This document shows, one piece after another, positions 18,066 through 30,914 of a stretch of 64,000 nt of DNA (position 1 is its first letter; every line of letters begins with the position of its first letter). This DNA is from Achromobacter sp. UMC46 (GTDB taxonomy: Bacteria; Pseudomonadota; Gammaproteobacteria; Burkholderiales; Burkholderiaceae_B). Under the pieces are notes generated by a model that saw nothing but the letters and a program-made list of their open reading frames with translations, did not search any database and was not told the origin of the DNA. The stretch lies in assembly GCF_014170335.1 (NCBI RefSeq), contig NZ_LZZS01000003.1, positions 186,001 to 250,000 on the forward strand, in the 5' to 3' direction. Made by a program: the position numbers and the translations under genes.

Positions 18066-19433
18066 CTACGCGAAGGTATCGACCAAGGCGTTGGCATTGC
18101 GCGGAGTGGGCACGACGGGTGCGGTGTTGCCGGCCGCCGCATCGGCGACCGCCGATCCGCCGCCCGGCTGGCGCTGCGAGCCGTTGCCACCGTGCTGTTG
18201 CGCGAACTCCTGTTGCGCGGCCTGTTCGCCGACGCTGGTCTGGCCAAGCGAAATGCCGGCTTGCGCCAACGCTTGCTGCAACTGCGGAATGGCGGTTTCG
18301 ATCGCCTGGCGCACGGATGCGTGGGCTGACACGAACGAGGCGGTGGCCACACCATCCGCCAGATTCAGGCTGACGCGCAGCGGGCCCAGATCCGGGGGAT
18401 CCAGCCGCAGTTCGGCAGTCTGCATGCCCTGGCGGGCGTTGGTGCTCATCATCACGACTTGCTGGCCGAGCTCGGTGCCCCAATGGGTACCGCCCACGGG
18501 GGTGGCGACCTGCATCACGACAGGCACGGCTGGCGCGGCGACGGCGGCTTGGTTCAATACAGGCGCTGCCTGGCGCTGCGTGGCCGCGGCAAGGGCCTGC
18601 GCCAGGTGGTCCTGAGCCGAAGGGGCGCCGTGCTGCGGCGCCTGGAACTGTTGCGCGGTGCTGGTCAGCGCGGCCGTCAGCTCTTCTTCGGTATGGGCCG
18701 CTTGCGTCGTCGTGCGTTCGGCTTCCGGGCGAATATCGCGCGGGACGCGCGGCAGCGGAAGGTCGGCGGCCAGGCGCGGCGGTTCGGCCTTGACAGCCGG
18801 CTTCGGGTTGGCGGGCGCAGCTTCCAAAGGAGCCGTCACGGCGCCGCTCGGTTTGACGGCGGCCGTGACGACGGGCAACGCGGCCTGGGCGTCGCGGGCG
18901 CTGAGCGCGGCGGCCGCTTCAGCTTGCACGGCCGTTGCGGCGACGGGCGTACGCGGGGTGGCGGCGACGTCGGCGGCATTGAGCGTGGCGGCAAGCACGG
19001 CAGCGCCGGAACTCATCGCGGTCGCGGCGGCCTCGGCATTGCCGCGGGCAAGCTGCACCTGCTCGGCGGCCTGGGTGGCAATCTCAAGCGCTTGCTGCGG
19101 CAAGACCGGCATTGCCGGTTGTTGCGTGGCGGCGACGGCCAACGCGCCGGCTTCCGCAGCGACGGCCGTATTCACGGCATCGTCGATCGCGCCGGCGGCA
19201 GCGGCTTCAGCCTTGTTGGCGGAGTCGCTGGCGGTGGTGCTCTTGTCGGGCGTTTTGGCGCCGTTGTTCGCGGGACGCGAATCGGCGGACGGCTTCGGGC
19301 GCTGCTGGGCCAGAACGTCCGAGAAGCTCGGGCCTTTCTTGTTCGCGGATGCGGACTTCTTGGCGCCAAGCGCGTCGGCGATCGAAGTCGGCGCGACGGG
19401 GCTGATCGTGGGCAAGGGCAGGGGAGCGGTCAT
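18066..19433 (-). CDS. fliK: Flagellar hook-length control protein FliK
   Basis: Secreted molecular ruler of 455 residues that senses hook length and makes FlhB switch from rod/hook to filament export. The N-terminal 300 residues are Ala/Pro/Thr-rich and of low complexity, as in FliK. The conserved C-terminal domain begins near residue 330 (WGTELGQQVVMMSTN) and includes LRLDPPDLGPLRVSL and the Gln-rich end. It lies in the canonical place between fliJ (24 bp away) and fliL. A second FliK-like protein is encoded at 26725-28065. Confidence 0.94.
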   Translation of the reverse strand: MTAPLPLPTISPVAPTSIADALGAKKSASANKKGPSFSDVLAQQRPKPSADSRPANNGAKTPDKSTTASDSANKAEAAAAGAIDDAVNTAVAAEAGALAVAATQQPAMPVLPQQALEIATQAAEQVQLARGNAEAAATAMSSGAAVLAATLNAADVAATPRTPVAATAVQAEAAAALSARDAQAALPVVTAAVKPSGAVTAPLEAAPANPKPAVKAEPPRLAADLPLPRVPRDIRPEAERTTTQAAHTEEELTAALTSTAQQFQAPQHGAPSAQDHLAQALAAATQRQAAPVLNQAAVAAPAVPVVMQVATPVGGTHWGTELGQQVVMMSTNARQGMQTAELRLDPPDLGPLRVSLNLADGVATASFVSAHASVRQAIETAIPQLQQALAQAGISLGQTSVGEQAAQQEFAQQHGGNGSQRQPGGGSAVADAAAGNTAPVVPTPRNANALVDTFA

Positions 19434-26407: not shown

Positions 26408-26725
26408 TCAGGCGGGTGGCGCGGGGTCGGGTAGCTCGCGCGATTCCAGGCGATAAAGCCAGGCCAGCAATTCTGCCACTGCTACGTACAGTTGGGGAGG
26501 AATATGTGCGTCCAGGTCCACTTGCATGAGCAAACCCACCAGTTCGCGGGACTCGTGCACGTACAAACCGTTCTCTTCGGCGGCGCGCACGATGGTGTCG
26601 GCCAACTGGCCGTAGCCTTTGGCGACGACGCGCGGGGCGCCGTCCTTGTCGTCATAGGAAATGGCGACGGCTGCGTTGCGGTTGGCGTTGGGGCCGTTGT
26701 CGTCGGCGTGGGGGGCGATGCTCAT
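26408..26725 (-). CDS. flhX: FlhB C-terminal-domain protein (FlhX type)
   Basis: 105 residues equal to the cytoplasmic C-terminal half of FlhB without its membrane part. It reads AVAISYDDKDGAPRVVAKGYGQLA and then DLDAHIPPQLYVAVAELLAWLY, as in FlhB. The NPTH autocleavage sequence is absent; at its place stands NANRN just before AAVAISY, so the protein begins about where cleaved FlhB would. In Helicobacter a similar protein can replace the cleaved part of FlhB. The ATG overlaps the stop of the upstream fliK-like gene by one base (TGATG). Confidence 0.85.
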   Translation of the reverse strand: MSIAPHADDNGPNANRNAAVAISYDDKDGAPRVVAKGYGQLADTIVRAAEENGLYVHESRELVGLLMQVDLDAHIPPQLYVAVAELLAWLYRLESRELPDPAPPA

Positions 26726-28065
26726 CAGAAGTCGTTCGGAATGACAGGGCGTGGATCCGTCACGCTGACCGCCAGATTGCTCAGGGTCAGGCCCGCGGCC
26801 AGCAGTCGTGACCGCAACTGGTCGGACGAATCATTGATCTCGGCAGCAGCCAGCGGCGCAACCAGTTGCAGGACGATCTGGTCGCCGGCAAGGTTCAGCC
26901 GGGCGTCCACCAGGCCAAGGCGGGGCAGATCCAGTTTCAGGCGCGTGGCCCAGGTGGGCGTCGCCGAATCGGGGTCGCCGCCGTAGGGATCGCGTTCCAC
27001 TTCCCATTCCATCGGCGTGCCTGGCCAGGCTTCGCCTTGCCAGGCGAGCGACTGGTTGGCCAGCACATCCAGCTGCTGGCGCACCAGCACGGTCAGGTCC
27101 TGGTGGATGCCGGCGATCGGCGTGCCCGGCGCGGGCGTGGCCGACGGCCCACTGCCCGATGGCGCATCCGCGCCGCCGCCCGCGCGTCCGGCCGGGGACG
27201 TCTCCGGACGGCCGCGCGCCGGCGCGGTGTTCTGCGGGATATCGTCTTTGCTCAGCTTGGCCTGGGGTTCATTCTGCAGCGACGACGGGCTGGTCCGGCC
27301 GAACACCATGTTGGTCAGGTGCGATTCATAGAACAGGCCGCTGGTCTGCAGCGCTTGGCGCAACGCCTGTCCCAGCAGGCGGGCGGACGGTCCGTTGGTC
27401 GCCGTCGAGGCGTGCGCCAGAGCGTCGGCGCCGCGCGCGGCGTTGGCGTCGGCCTGCCCGGCGGGGCGGGCAAGCTTGGTCGTGGCGGCGGCATTCGCGG
27501 CGGCGGCAAGTCCGGCGGGCGTAGCGGGCAGGGCTGGCGCTGGCGTTGCCGCCGGCGGGAGTTGGCCAGCGCCCGGCGCGGTCTGGCCGGGGGCAGCTTG
27601 GCCTGCGGCAGCCTGGCCTGTTGCAGCCTGGCCGGCAGCTTGCCCAGCCGTGCCGTTGGCGCTCCACAGCGGGGCTCGCCCCTGCACGGCAGGCGCCGCT
27701 TCAGGGTACTGGGCCAACAGGGCCAGGATCGTCCGGGCGGTCGTGCCCAGCGTGGTCGGGGCGGAGGCCGTGGTGTCGTTGCTGGTGACGAGGCCGCGGG
27801 CGGCCAGCGCCAGGGCAGCGGCCGTTTTGGCATCGACGACAGTATTCTGGCGGTCGCCTCGGGCGCCGCCAGTCTGTATGCCTTGCCGGGGATCGCGGGT
27901 AGAACCGTCCGAGGAACCGGGCTTCTCCAGGCCCCCGGGCTGGCTGACAGCATCAGGCCGCGCACCGGAGACCTGGTTGGCGTTGGCGGCGGACATCGTC
28001 GTGCCAAGCACGGCGTCCAACCGCTGCACCAGGACGTTGCCGAGTGCGGCGGGGCCTACGCTCAT
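26725..28065 (-). CDS. Second FliK-like hook-length control protein
   Basis: 446 residues. The N-terminal 300 are Ala/Pro/Gly/Gln-rich low complexity with short repeats AAGQAA/ATGQAA near residues 140-165. The C-terminal 130 residues form a FliK-type substrate-switch domain (MEWEVERDP, TRLKLDLPRLGLVDARLNLAG, LRSRLLAAGLTLSNLAVSV). It is distinct from FliK at 18066-19433, which is in the normal place. It overlaps fliT by four bases (ATGA) and flhX by one base, so it is co-made with an FlhB-like partner. It could tune the export switch or be a variant cytoplasmic regulator; the role is not known. Confidence 0.85.
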   Translation of the reverse strand: MSVGPAALGNVLVQRLDAVLGTTMSAANANQVSGARPDAVSQPGGLEKPGSSDGSTRDPRQGIQTGGARGDRQNTVVDAKTAAALALAARGLVTSNDTTASAPTTLGTTARTILALLAQYPEAAPAVQGRAPLWSANGTAGQAAGQAATGQAAAGQAAPGQTAPGAGQLPPAATPAPALPATPAGLAAAANAAATTKLARPAGQADANAARGADALAHASTATNGPSARLLGQALRQALQTSGLFYESHLTNMVFGRTSPSSLQNEPQAKLSKDDIPQNTAPARGRPETSPAGRAGGGADAPSGSGPSATPAPGTPIAGIHQDLTVLVRQQLDVLANQSLAWQGEAWPGTPMEWEVERDPYGGDPDSATPTWATRLKLDLPRLGLVDARLNLAGDQIVLQLVAPLAAAEINDSSDQLRSRLLAAGLTLSNLAVSVTDPRPVIPNDF

Positions 28066-28463
28066 TCTTCAGACGCCTGATAGCCGTAGGCCGAGAGCAG
28101 GGTCTGTTGCCGTTTCATGCGTCCCAGCAACTCGCCCAGGCGAGCCAATTGAGGAAGGGCCAGATCTCGGGTCAAGGCATCGTTTTCCAGGATGCGCACG
28201 AGCAGGTCGTACTTCATCGCGCGGGCGGCTTCATCCAGCGGAACCTTTTGTTCGGACTGGCGCAAACGTTCGACGCGTTCGCAATACTGTTGGCCATGGA
28301 CCATCGCCATGTCCCAGTCGCCCGCCTTGGCGGCGGTCAGCATTTCATCCGTAATGGACGCGATTTCCTGGTAGTTTTCCAGGATGGGGGGAGGGGACTG
28401 GGTAAGGGACGTCATGGAAATCTCGGGCGTTCGCAGGCTGACTGCAGGCATGTTCTGGGCCAT
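28062..28463 (-). CDS. fliT: Flagellar chaperone FliT
   Basis: 133-residue helical protein, the export chaperone for the filament cap FliD. Family-like stretches are ILENYQEIASITDEMLTAAKAGDWD and the C-terminal LARLGELLGRMKRQQTLLSAYG. In enteric bacteria FliT also inhibits FlhDC. Its ATG overlaps the fliS stop by one base (TAATG) and its stop overlaps the next start by four. The first 16 residues may be extra; a second ATG giving MTSLTQSPP lies 48 bases downstream. Confidence 0.85.
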   Translation of the reverse strand: MAQNMPAVSLRTPEISMTSLTQSPPPILENYQEIASITDEMLTAAKAGDWDMAMVHGQQYCERVERLRQSEQKVPLDEAARAMKYDLLVRILENDALTRDLALPQLARLGELLGRMKRQQTLLSAYGYQASEE

Positions 28464-28891
28464 TACGGCTCCAAGCCGCCAGCCGGCCGGTCGATGGAAG
28501 TCTGCCAGGCGTCGGCCAAGTCGGCCAGCAGCCGGTCGGCAATATCGAGCTGCTCGACATCTGCCTTCAGGTTCGCAGTCAGCAGCGTGCGGATGATGTA
28601 GTCGTATAGAAGGGCAAGATTGGCGGCGATATCGCCGCCTGCTTCCATATTCAGACCGGTCTTCAGACCTTCATCGACAATCTTGATCGCTTTCGAGATG
28701 GCCGCGCCGCGTTCGGCGATCCGGCCTTCGTTCAAATGAATCCGGGCCTGCCCGATCGCTGCCCGGGCACCCAGGTAGAGCAATGTGATCAGCCGCTCCG
28801 GACTGGCGCCCAGGACTTGCGTTTCCAAGCCGATATCGGCATAGGAACGAACGGAATGAGACCCTGAGGGCCGTCGGGCGGCATACGTCAT
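28463..28891 (-). CDS. fliS: Flagellin export chaperone FliS
   Basis: 142 residues, the four-helix chaperone that binds the C-terminus of flagellin and prevents early assembly. Conserved: SYADIGLETQVLGASPERLITLLY and the later IVDEGLKTGLNMEAGGDIAANLALLYDYI. It lies 19 bases after fliD. Its partner flagellin is not in this window. Confidence 0.95.
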   Translation of the reverse strand: MTYAARRPSGSHSVRSYADIGLETQVLGASPERLITLLYLGARAAIGQARIHLNEGRIAERGAAISKAIKIVDEGLKTGLNMEAGGDIAANLALLYDYIIRTLLTANLKADVEQLDIADRLLADLADAWQTSIDRPAGGLEP

Positions 28892-28910: not shown

Positions 28911-30299
28911 TTACTTGGCGGACTTGTTCAGTGCCTCGAACTGCTGGGTCAGATAATTTCCCGTGCTTTGCATCTTCATGTAGAACGAGTCGAGCGCCAC
29001 GAACTGCGTGCGCATCCGTTCGATTTCCGCGTCGCTTGAAGCCTTTGCGCGCGCCTGCTGCGCGTCTAGCGCGCTGATCGTCTTGGCCAGGCCGTCCTGG
29101 CGCGTCTTCAACGAGCCTGTCGAGCCCAGCACGTCCTTCAGCGCCGCGTCGATATTCTTGGCCAAGCCGTTTTCGCCGGTCAGCAGCTTGGTGACATCGG
29201 CGGGATTATCGGTCAACGCCTTGGTCAGCTTGGTCGTGTCCAACTTCAATTCGCGGGCGGTGGCATCGGTCGTGATGCCCAGATCCGCCAGCGAGCGGAG
29301 CGTGCCGTTGCCCAATACGTTCTGCAATGCGCCAGCCAGTGCGGATTGGATCGAGCGGGTGGTGCCGTCGCCCGTCAGCGGCTGGTTGGTCGCTGCTTTT
29401 GCGTCGAACGACGTCAGGTTCTTGATCGTGGTTTGCAGCGTCTTGTACTTGGTGACGAAGTCCTGGATCGCCTTGGTGGCCACCGAAGCGTCGGCTTCCA
29501 GCTTCAGCGTGATGGGCTTGTCGGTTTCCGTCTTTTCGGTCAAGTTCAGCGTAATGCCGTCGATGGCGGTCGAAATATTGTTCGAACCGCTTTTGACTGA
29601 AATGCCGTTGATGATGACTTCAGCGTCTTGCGCCTTGGTGGCCGCCATGCCGGTCGTGTTGCCGCTGGCGTCCGTGCTGAAGCTCAGGATGTTCTGAAGC
29701 GACGCGTCGCCGTTCACGGTGATGGACTTTACCGACGCCTTTTCACCGGTGTCCCGCGCGGTGAGCATCAAATAGTTGTTGCCGTTGCCGTCGTTGATGA
29801 CGGTGGCGCGCAAGCCGGTCTTGTCGTCGGCGTTGATCGCTTTGACGATGCCGTTCAGCGAGGTGTCGTTTTTCAGGTCGACCGTGCGCTTGGTGCCGTC
29901 CGCCAGTTCGATCTCGAACGTGCCCGTCGTGCCGTTCTGTGCGGTTCGATCAGCGACGGCTGACGATTGCAGGCTTTGGGCCCGCGCCAGGTTTTTCACT
30001 TCGATCGTATATTGGCCCGCGACGGCGCCCTCGGCTGCCACGGTGGCCGTCAAGGCTGAACCGCCCGTGACGCTACCCTTGATGGCGCCCATCGTTTCCG
30101 CCTTGCCCAATACGGCGGCCGACGACTGCAGCGCTTCCAGCGCGCTTTGCAGCTGCGAGTAAGCGTCAATGCGGGTCTGATAACTTTGCGCGCGCGTGGT
30201 GTAGACGGAGAGCTTTTTCGTCTCGGCGTCTTGCAGGTCAGACAGGATTTTTTCCAGCGGCAAGCCGGAAACTGAGCCGAGGTTAGTGATGGAAGCCAT
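28911..30299 (-). CDS. fliD: Flagellar filament cap protein FliD (HAP2)
   Basis: 462 residues. Secreted protein that forms the cap under which flagellin subunits fold. N-terminal MASITNLGSVSGLPLEKIL and the C-terminal coiled coil (RMRTQFVALDSFYMKMQSTGNYLTQQF) are typical, with Ser/Thr-rich variable domains between. GAAAGGAA lies seven bases before the ATG. It follows flaG after 144 bases that include a weak terminator-like hairpin, so part of its expression may come from readthrough. Confidence 0.95.
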   Translation of the reverse strand: MASITNLGSVSGLPLEKILSDLQDAETKKLSVYTTRAQSYQTRIDAYSQLQSALEALQSSAAVLGKAETMGAIKGSVTGGSALTATVAAEGAVAGQYTIEVKNLARAQSLQSSAVADRTAQNGTTGTFEIELADGTKRTVDLKNDTSLNGIVKAINADDKTGLRATVINDGNGNNYLMLTARDTGEKASVKSITVNGDASLQNILSFSTDASGNTTGMAATKAQDAEVIINGISVKSGSNNISTAIDGITLNLTEKTETDKPITLKLEADASVATKAIQDFVTKYKTLQTTIKNLTSFDAKAATNQPLTGDGTTRSIQSALAGALQNVLGNGTLRSLADLGITTDATARELKLDTTKLTKALTDNPADVTKLLTGENGLAKNIDAALKDVLGSTGSLKTRQDGLAKTISALDAQQARAKASSDAEIERMRTQFVALDSFYMKMQSTGNYLTQQFEALNKSAK

Positions 30300-30443: not shown

Positions 30444-30821
30444 TTAGGCTGTTGTTTTGATGCCATTGCCTTGCATGTTCACGATCATTTTGGCGATTTT
30501 CAGCACGGTTTCGCTGGGGATGGTGCGAATGACGTCCCCCGATTCCGCGTCCACGACCGACACCACGACCTGGTGCACGTTGGGGTCGATTTCGAACTGG
30601 AGTTGCGTGGACCAAGCTTTCATCTGGTCGTTGATCTCGTCCAGCGCCTTGTCCAAAGGCAACTTCTGCGAGTCTGACTGGTCCGACGTGGCGCTGTCGG
30701 AAGCACCGCTATTGGTCGCTGCCGCGGCCGGCGTCACGCTAACGGCCGGTTCGGCCACGACGGGCGCCGGCGTGATCGCAGCGGGTGCGTACGTAGCGGG
30801 TGCTAAGGGGGTTACGGCCAT
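30444..30821 (-). CDS. flaG: FlaG-family protein
   Basis: 125 residues from the ATG at 30821, which has GGAG six bases upstream; a GTG two codons earlier is possible. The C-terminal half is the FlaG domain (FEIDPNVHQVVVSVVDAESGDVIRTIPSE), and the N-terminal half is Ala/Thr/Pro-rich. FlaG proteins influence filament length in several polar flagellates. It is the first gene of the operon running to ycgR and has a FliA promoter about 67 bases upstream. Confidence 0.93.
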   Translation of the reverse strand: MAVTPLAPATYAPAAITPAPVVAEPAVSVTPAAAATNSGASDSATSDQSDSQKLPLDKALDEINDQMKAWSTQLQFEIDPNVHQVVVSVVDAESGDVIRTIPSETVLKIAKMIVNMQGNGIKTTA

Positions 30822-30887
30822 GATCACTCCAGCGGCGATGTGGGCGTCTCGGAGGAACGCGCTGTTTTCAGGGAATTCTCAGCTACC

Positions 30888-30914
30888 ATAACGGCATGCC
30901 CGCAGGGAACTTTA
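30888..30914 (-). promoter_or_regulatory. FliA (sigma-28) promoter for the flaG-fliD operon
   Basis: On the minus strand TAAAGTTC (30914-30907), 11 bases, GCCGTTAT (30895-30888); consensus TAAAGTTT-N11-GCCGATAA. 13 of 16 bases match with exact spacing. It faces away from the IclR regulator gene, whose start lies 50 bases to the other side. Confidence 0.8.

Follow-up and report, generated by a model that had tools for sequence, protein, structure and literature searches.

A second FliK-domain protein and a free FlhB C-terminal domain are encoded side by side in Burkholderiales and have relatives in distant bacteria

How FliK acts on FlhB is the subject of Chevance et al. 2026 (PMC13344023), passages of which describe FlhBCC, the cleaved C-terminal domain of FlhB, as removed or degraded in a FliK-dependent manner at the switch, and call the switch irreversible. 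The same passages state that early export requires FlhBCC, put forward an action of the five C-terminal residues of FliK on FlhBCC, and place FliK-bypass mutations in the FlhB stretch 274-323. Free relatives of the domain are also on record. Excerpts of two papers (PMC10746217, PMC9321776) count FlhX among the flagellar components of Actinobacteria and Campylobacterota, and an excerpt of the second mentions flhX-fliK as one locus in Nitratiruptor. Moreover, the title of Wand 2006 calls Helicobacter pylori HP1575 a "spare part" for FlhBCC, and a section of PMC5026340 describes Pseudomonas putida pp4328-4329 as an operon that encodes a FliK homolog together with an FlhB domain protein, has its own promoter, and is activated 1.8-fold by FleQ. 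FlhX itself (in H. pylori) and the pair (in P. putida) are already known. Searches of the open-licence literature gave no paper in which the pair is treated as a conserved module or Bacillus YlqG as a FliK protein.

Here, we describe a pair of this kind, fliK2-flhX, in a 64,000-nucleotide stretch of DNA from Achromobacter sp. UMC46 (contig NZ_LZZS01000003.1, positions 186,001 to 250,000), the whole of which is called the window. The pair resembles the Salmonella FliK-FlhB switch in the FliK T3S4 fold of FliK2 (structure 2rrl), in the FlhBCC fold of FlhX (structure 3b0z), and in the residues of the early-substrate pocket, and is unlike it in that FlhX lacks the membrane part and the NPTH motif. 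Like H. pylori HP1575, known here by title only, FlhX is a free FlhBCC homologue beside a full FlhB. By description only, the P. putida operon has the same two-gene arrangement. The Pseudomonas pairs differ from that of the window in their surroundings, however, as the P. putida pair has its own FleQ-activated promoter according to the same section of PMC5026340, and the P. aeruginosa pair lies beside ccm genes and not in a fliDST run.

The pair and its gene run

The pair is part of a run of genes on the minus strand in the order flaG-fliD-fliS-fliT-fliK2-flhX-ycgR, with one sigma28-like site ahead, as read from the list of open reading frames (ORFs) and a site scan. The features are as follows.

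30888..30914, minus strand: sigma28 (FliA)-like promoter site upstream of flaG, 13 of 16 consensus bases
30444..30827, minus strand: presumably flaG, named from the gene order; in the ORF list, with homologues at the loci of relatives
28911..30299, minus strand: a gene that we take to be fliD, again from the gene order; in the ORF list, with homologues at the loci of relatives
28463..28891, minus strand: fliS (Pfam 5.5e-33)
28062..28463, minus strand: fliT (Pfam 2.2e-19), overlapping fliK2 by 4 bases
26725..28065, minus strand: fliK2, second FliK-domain protein, 446 aa (Pfam PF02120; 2rrl profile match)
27319..27342, minus strand: SGLFYESH motif of FliK2, aa 242-249, the mark of the FliK2 family; EPQ follows at aa 266-268
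26752..26964, minus strand: FliK switch-type (T3S4/Flg_hook) domain of FliK2, aa 368-438, after which 8 residues remain
26725..26725, minus strand: one-base overlap of the fliK2 stop and the flhX start (ORF coordinates)
26408..26725, minus strand: flhX, free FlhB C-terminal (FlhBCC-like) domain protein, 105 aa (PF01312, TIGR00789, PDB 3b0z)
26456..26674, minus strand: FlhBCC-like domain of FlhX, aa 18-90 (Pfam), with pocket residues A30, P31, A84, and L87 (residues named in passages of PMC13344023)
25580..26383, minus strand: ycgR-like PilZ protein gene downstream of flhX, with matches below the curated cut-offs
18066..19433, minus strand: canonical fliK (FliK1), 455 aa, C terminus LVDTFA (Pfam 3.6e-22)

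A preliminary description of this DNA had reported a second FliK-domain protein distinct from fliK, a free FlhB C-terminal domain without NPTH right behind it, and an overlap of one base between the two genes. We agree on each point. The Flg_hook domain is present in both FliK proteins and the coordinates are correct, FlhX matched only columns 261-335 of the 335 in the FlhB family model (PF01312, Bac_export_2; E 2.5e-17) and has no NPTH, and base 26725 is common to both genes. The 4-base overlap of fliT and fliK2 and the one-base overlap of fliK2 and flhX suggest that fliT, fliK2, and flhX are probably translated together. The genome of the window has both the canonical FliK1 and a full-length FlhB, the latter encoded outside the window (G000:C3:172396-173415).

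FlhX has only 105 aa and lacks the membrane domain of FlhB. It matched NCBIfam TIGR00789 flhB_rel (E 5.5e-23; 81 bits, below the model cut-off of 117), and its best match among solved structures was the FlhB cytoplasmic domain 3b0z (5.7e-10). NPTH was found in none of 121 FlhX proteins versus 30 of 30 FlhB proteins. The early-substrate pocket was kept, as FlhB residues A286, P287, A341, and L344 correspond to FlhX A30, P31, A84, and L87 and, with the longest ORF taken at each locus, the four residues were conserved in 112, 121, 120, and 121 of the 121 FlhX proteins, respectively. Many of the FlhB-conserved columns were kept, and columns that form an FlhX-specific signature, counted from the same ORFs, were near-invariant. 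Salmonella FlhB VPTLEAPPLARALYRHAEIG is replaced in FlhX by its own conserved version, about VYVHESPELV-LLMQVDLD, and the FlhX segment 310-329 (Salmonella numbering) is sharply unlike that of FlhB. One full-length FlhB, at locus L314 of genome G238, has NPTR for NPTH at the cleavage site.

A tree of 78 FlhX and 42 FlhB domains split the two with support of 99/95, in an alignment that was a subsample of rows with only 91 columns and with a bootstrap that had not settled. On the FlhX side, sequences from Bacillota, Spirochaetota, Campylobacterota, and the phylum of the window came together, the window's own FlhX being represented by that of a same-genus relative (L095; FlhX 90% identical). Judged by sequence, FlhX is separate from FlhB and is not local FlhB debris.

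FliK2 carries the Flg_hook/FliK domain at aa 368-438 (PF02120, E 6.9e-13, above the curated cut-off), and the same domain of FliK1 matched at E 3.6e-22. The FliK1 and FliK2 domains matched each other at 98.1% in hhalign, and a profile of nine FliK2 family members matched the FliK C-terminal nuclear magnetic resonance structure 2rrl at 1.1e-6. Unlike canonical FliK, FliK2 of the window's order has its own SGLFYESH...EPQ motif and lacks a VDxFA-type tail. The motif, written as SGLFxE[SA][HR], was present in 85 of 114 FliK2 proteins versus 0 of 20 FliK1 proteins, and the 29 FliK2 proteins without the exact motif were excluded from the FliK2 C-terminal and domain profiles. A strict tail, [VILM][DN]x[FY][AVIL], was found in 20 of 20 FliK1 proteins, a set from which 11 of 31 loci with canonical Flg_hook matches had been excluded for failing the regular expression, versus 0 of 114 FliK2 proteins of the order. 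A loose tail, [VILMF][DN]xx[VILA], was found in the same 20 FliK1 proteins, in 1 of the 114 FliK2 proteins, and, as a control, at the end of 13 of 438 other flagellar proteins.

The window's FliK2 is rich in Gly, Ala, and Gln over its N-terminal half, with GQAAA-type repeats at 27496-27678 (aa about 130-190). Many relatives have a conserved beta-rich region there by alignment consensus, and in the window's lineage it seems to have been replaced or eroded. A separate profile for the beta-rich region gave some matches in other loci of the phylum and none in YlqG. A third Flg_hook match in the window's genome, at G000:C14:192307-192516 (L003; E 1.5e-4, below the cut-off), was not counted as FliK. 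Its ORF, of 163 aa beside lpxC, we take by inspection to be DUF721/DciA-like, a possible false friend in counts of FliK.

Co-occurrence and promoters in the order

The occurrence of the pair was followed in 200 genomes of the window's order with a completeness of 90% or more. An FlhB-family match was present in 145 and a match in the FlhX protein search in 142, and free FlhX was found as a short ORF in 123, or in 124 with genome G199, in which FlhX is cut by a contig end. FliK2 was present in all 124 and adjacent in 122. In one of the two other cases, the genes were on separate contigs (L182), one of which starts at flhX and the other of which, in the same genome, has FliK2 129 bases from its start; in the other case, they were about 4 kb apart with FliK2 upstream (L214). 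Among the 21 FlhB-family-positive genomes without FlhX, FliK2 was present in one, G150, with fliK2 running off a contig end, and the other FliK2-profile matches in these genomes reflected the shared FliK domain alone. The profile missed FliK2 of G138, and thus some divergent FliK2 proteins may go undetected. The Fisher p value for co-occurrence was about 1e-23, uncorrected for kinship.

Adjacency was checked at 120 FlhX loci of the order and in the window, 121 in all. A script placed FliK2 upstream of FlhX on the same strand in 114 of the 121, the window included, and in all 114 the FliK2 stop was at most 160 bases from the codon for FlhX residue 19. A profile search recovered five of the other seven (L167, L186, and L211-L213), L186 being a frame-broken draft copy, and the pair was adjacent too in G138, G167 (a somewhat contaminated draft), and G199. 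A FliK2-FlhX gene fusion would count as strong evidence, and the one candidate, L186 (a draft of 140 contigs), was rejected because the pieces, taken as they were read, are in different frames; its fliK2 is frame-broken, and the C-terminal part is by chance in frame with flhX.

Adjacency is conserved in more than one neighborhood. None of fliS, fliT, fliD, and flaG was detected in the stretch examined at 17 pair loci, where the pair is thus not a mere passenger of these genes. Moreover, the distance matrices of FlhX and FliK2 correlated at 0.58 (partial, 0.47), the highest of ten gene pairs (80 loci, five genes), a descriptive figure, as kinship is common to all genes. The preliminary description held that the two genes belong together and pointed to homologues occurring one without the other in most genomes as the result that would speak against it, and the search gave the opposite. 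We conclude that fliK2-flhX forms an old module, the genes of which are nearly inseparable in the window's order.

The same description called the run FliA-driven and the pair made only after the switch. In the window, three sigma28-like sites were found versus 0.06 expected, and the flaG site has 3 mismatches in 16 consensus bases; the exact short sigma28 consensus had no match in the window. A strong site (score of at least 10.5) was present within 350 bp of flaG at 2 of 78 loci (control, 4 of 780), namely, in the window and in one family member, and a congener has a weaker one. Stand-alone pairs had a sigma28-like site in 1 of 17 cases versus 2 of 170 control stretches, no clear excess. Within 6 kb upstream of fliK2, a site scoring at least 10.9 was present at 48 of 114 loci versus 3 of 114 on the opposite strand, and thus read-through from a late promoter is possible in many loci. 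As few sites are near flaG and many are within 6 kb, most of them are farther upstream. The flaG-proximal site is characteristic of the window and its close relatives. Late expression of the pair did not emerge as general, and direct sigma28 control as a general feature was dropped in view of the counts near flaG and at the stand-alone pairs.

Partners of FlhX beyond the order

Among the matches listed from samples of 299 genomes for the window's phylum and 199 for the Bacillus phylum, many genomes had FlhX in the form of a short ORF. At 40 other loci of the window's phylum, picked from the top-scoring listed matches with one per genome and a spread of families, FliK2 was adjacent in 29 (28 by the first profile and one more by a wider profile), weakly matched in 2, and not detected in 9. 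The nine loci suggest that FlhX may work with no FliK2 beside it in some lineages. Surroundings varied among the adjacent pairs. Cupriavidus campinensis has the pair in a flaG-fliD-fliS-fliT-fliK2-flhX run, and P. aeruginosa has a FliK gene and an EscU-type gene with a 4-bp overlap beside ccmAB. In Indioceanicola profundi (L220, 3953-4279), FlhX lies between fliP and fliG in a flagellar cluster with no recognized fliK2 adjacent upstream, and FlhX of L242, L258, L269, and L270 likewise has none. The FlhX partner of L241 (3422-4169), of only 248 aa, matches the FliK2 N-terminal region weakly (4e-3) and lacks a recognized FliK domain; perhaps it is a reduced FliK2.

In Bacillus, ylqG-ylqH is located between the ribonuclease HII gene and sucCD. 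The two genes are like the window's pair in that YlqH (TIGR00789) corresponds to FlhX, YlqG is the FliK-domain protein, and the genes overlap, by 4 bp in B. velezensis. They are unlike it in that they are outside a flagellar operon and YlqG has retained a FliK-like tail (VDVKI). No relevant Pfam match was found for YlqG, and YlqG of Bacillus alone gave weak profile matches (FliK2, 10.9%; FliK1, 31.7%; controls, up to 3.2%). A set of 32 loci was therefore of use as a bridge, consisting of the best-scoring 29 of the 199-genome Bacillus-phylum sample together with Bacillus atrophaeus, Arcobacter, and Brevinematales. The script located an adjacent ORF upstream at 29 of the 32, and inspection by eye added two (L332 and L343) for a total of 31; at L349, no FliK-type ORF was seen upstream within the about 440 bases of sequence available. 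YlqG matched the rest of the partner set at 99.5% (E 2e-22), and, with three YlqG proteins included, the partner set gave 97.4% (E 9e-12) against the FliK1 domain and 97.1% (E 7e-11) against the FliK2 domain, versus less than 1% for each of six control families. By this chain of profiles, YlqG is a divergent FliK-domain protein.

The tail has a distribution of its own. The loose tail ends all 29 script-found FlhX partners of the 32-locus set, which is mainly from the Bacillus phylum. Among 28 FliK2 proteins from the rest of the window's phylum, the strict tail was found in 4 and the loose tail in 9, and thus the tail is not general. As the tail is present in the Bacillus-phylum partners and absent in the window's order, the original FlhX partner was probably a complete FliK-type protein, the tail of which would then have been lost in the window's lineage. 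Adjacency in several neighborhoods, the distance correlation, and the tail of the Bacillus-phylum partners would all fit a physical relation of the FliK-FlhB type.

Possible functions of FlhX and FliK2

How the pair might act on export can be framed in several ways. The preliminary description suggested a second control layer that could lock export in late mode or reset it, both of which are conjectural. We rank as the most likely reading that FlhX replaces FlhBCC or competes with it, with FliK2 in control, and we hold it tentatively, as quite possible though short of likely. The fliK2-flhX pair would be an old, separate FliK-FlhB module in which a soluble, FlhBCC-like FlhX can probably occupy the FlhBCC site and FliK2 serves as a dedicated FliK-type partner. 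FlhX would be a soluble form of the cleaved FlhBCC domain of FlhB that needs no autocleavage and keeps the early-substrate pocket. It would probably sit at the FlhBCC site after FliK has removed FlhBCC, or when FlhBCC is damaged, and FliK2 would bind it through the T3S4 fold. The presumed ancestral partner, which may persist in the Bacillus phylum, would have had a FliK-like C-terminal tail able to unseat FlhX. In the window's order, in which the tail is gone, FliK2 may hold or deliver FlhX and not eject it. Several points weigh against this reading. FliK2 went undetected beside FlhX at 9 of the 40 other loci of the phylum and was weakly matched at 2, and the tail is not general. FlhX segment 310-329 is unlike FlhB, and thus FlhX could fail to bind the same partners; and normal FlhB is kept in nearly all genomes with FlhX (all but G082 and G105 by match counts), and thus a spare is not obviously needed. 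A bolder version, which we regard as doubtful when taken whole, would give several phyla a second, membrane-free FliK-FlhB switch. FlhX would refill the site vacated by FlhBCC, FliK2 or YlqG would control its residence, the switch could be reset or trimmed, and tail loss in the window's order would have turned FliK2 from a remover into a retainer.

Alternatively, FlhX might be a decoy. By binding FliK, or freshly synthesized FliK, in the cytoplasm, it would keep unfinished basal bodies from switching wrongly or too soon, with FliK2 competing for or regulating FlhX. FlhX keeps the fold and many FlhB-conserved columns, and the domain that FliK2 shares with FliK (98.1% in hhalign) makes cross-binding between FliK and FlhX plausible. 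A decoy would have no need of a dedicated FliK paralogue in each FlhX-bearing genome sampled from the order, however, and FlhX diverges in the 302-329 region, which overlaps the FliK-bypass stretch 274-323 given in passages of PMC13344023. We consider this account unlikely.

Perhaps the pair is instead a dispensable paralogue that adds robustness and has no separate control role. The "spare part" of the H. pylori title (Wand 2006) suggests backup, and some genomes of the order that lack both genes still have FlhB and a FliK. In comparison with one same-genus genome, however, dN/dS was low for flhX (0.083) and fliK2 (0.183), such that both look like genes under selection, and the signature columns of FlhX hardly vary. 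Moreover, that FlhX of Bacillota, Spirochaetota, Campylobacterota, and the window's phylum group together and apart from FlhB argues for a function of its own. Dispensability seems rather unlikely. Finally, we find it quite improbable that FlhX is a soluble receptor that takes up rod and hook substrates off the gate and keeps them soluble or sidelined in late mode, with FliK2 loading or unloading it, for although all four pocket residues are kept and the window's pair shares a gene run, and presumably a transcript, with the chaperone genes fliS and fliT, use of the pocket in FlhX is conjecture from sequence, and in neither B. velezensis nor P. aeruginosa does the annotation place a chaperone gene within 4 kb of the pair.

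The model of an irreversible switch, as worded in passages of PMC13344023, is directly concerned, as a soluble FlhBCC copy and a FliK-type partner are encoded in 124 of the 145 FlhB-family-positive genomes of the order. The question posed to the model of FlhBCC removal is whether FlhX replaces the removed domain. That relatives of the pair are found side by side in very distant bacteria suggests an old part of flagellum building. For Bacillus, the outcome is that ylqG is identified as the gene of a FliK-domain protein. We note that ylqG is annotated as "glycosyl transferase" in a Bacillus velezensis plasmid record (NZ_CP083716.1; L215, 2274-3977), and that an excerpt of PMC11523185 reports ylqG P457Q, among other mutations, in several evolved B. 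subtilis clones from swarming populations.
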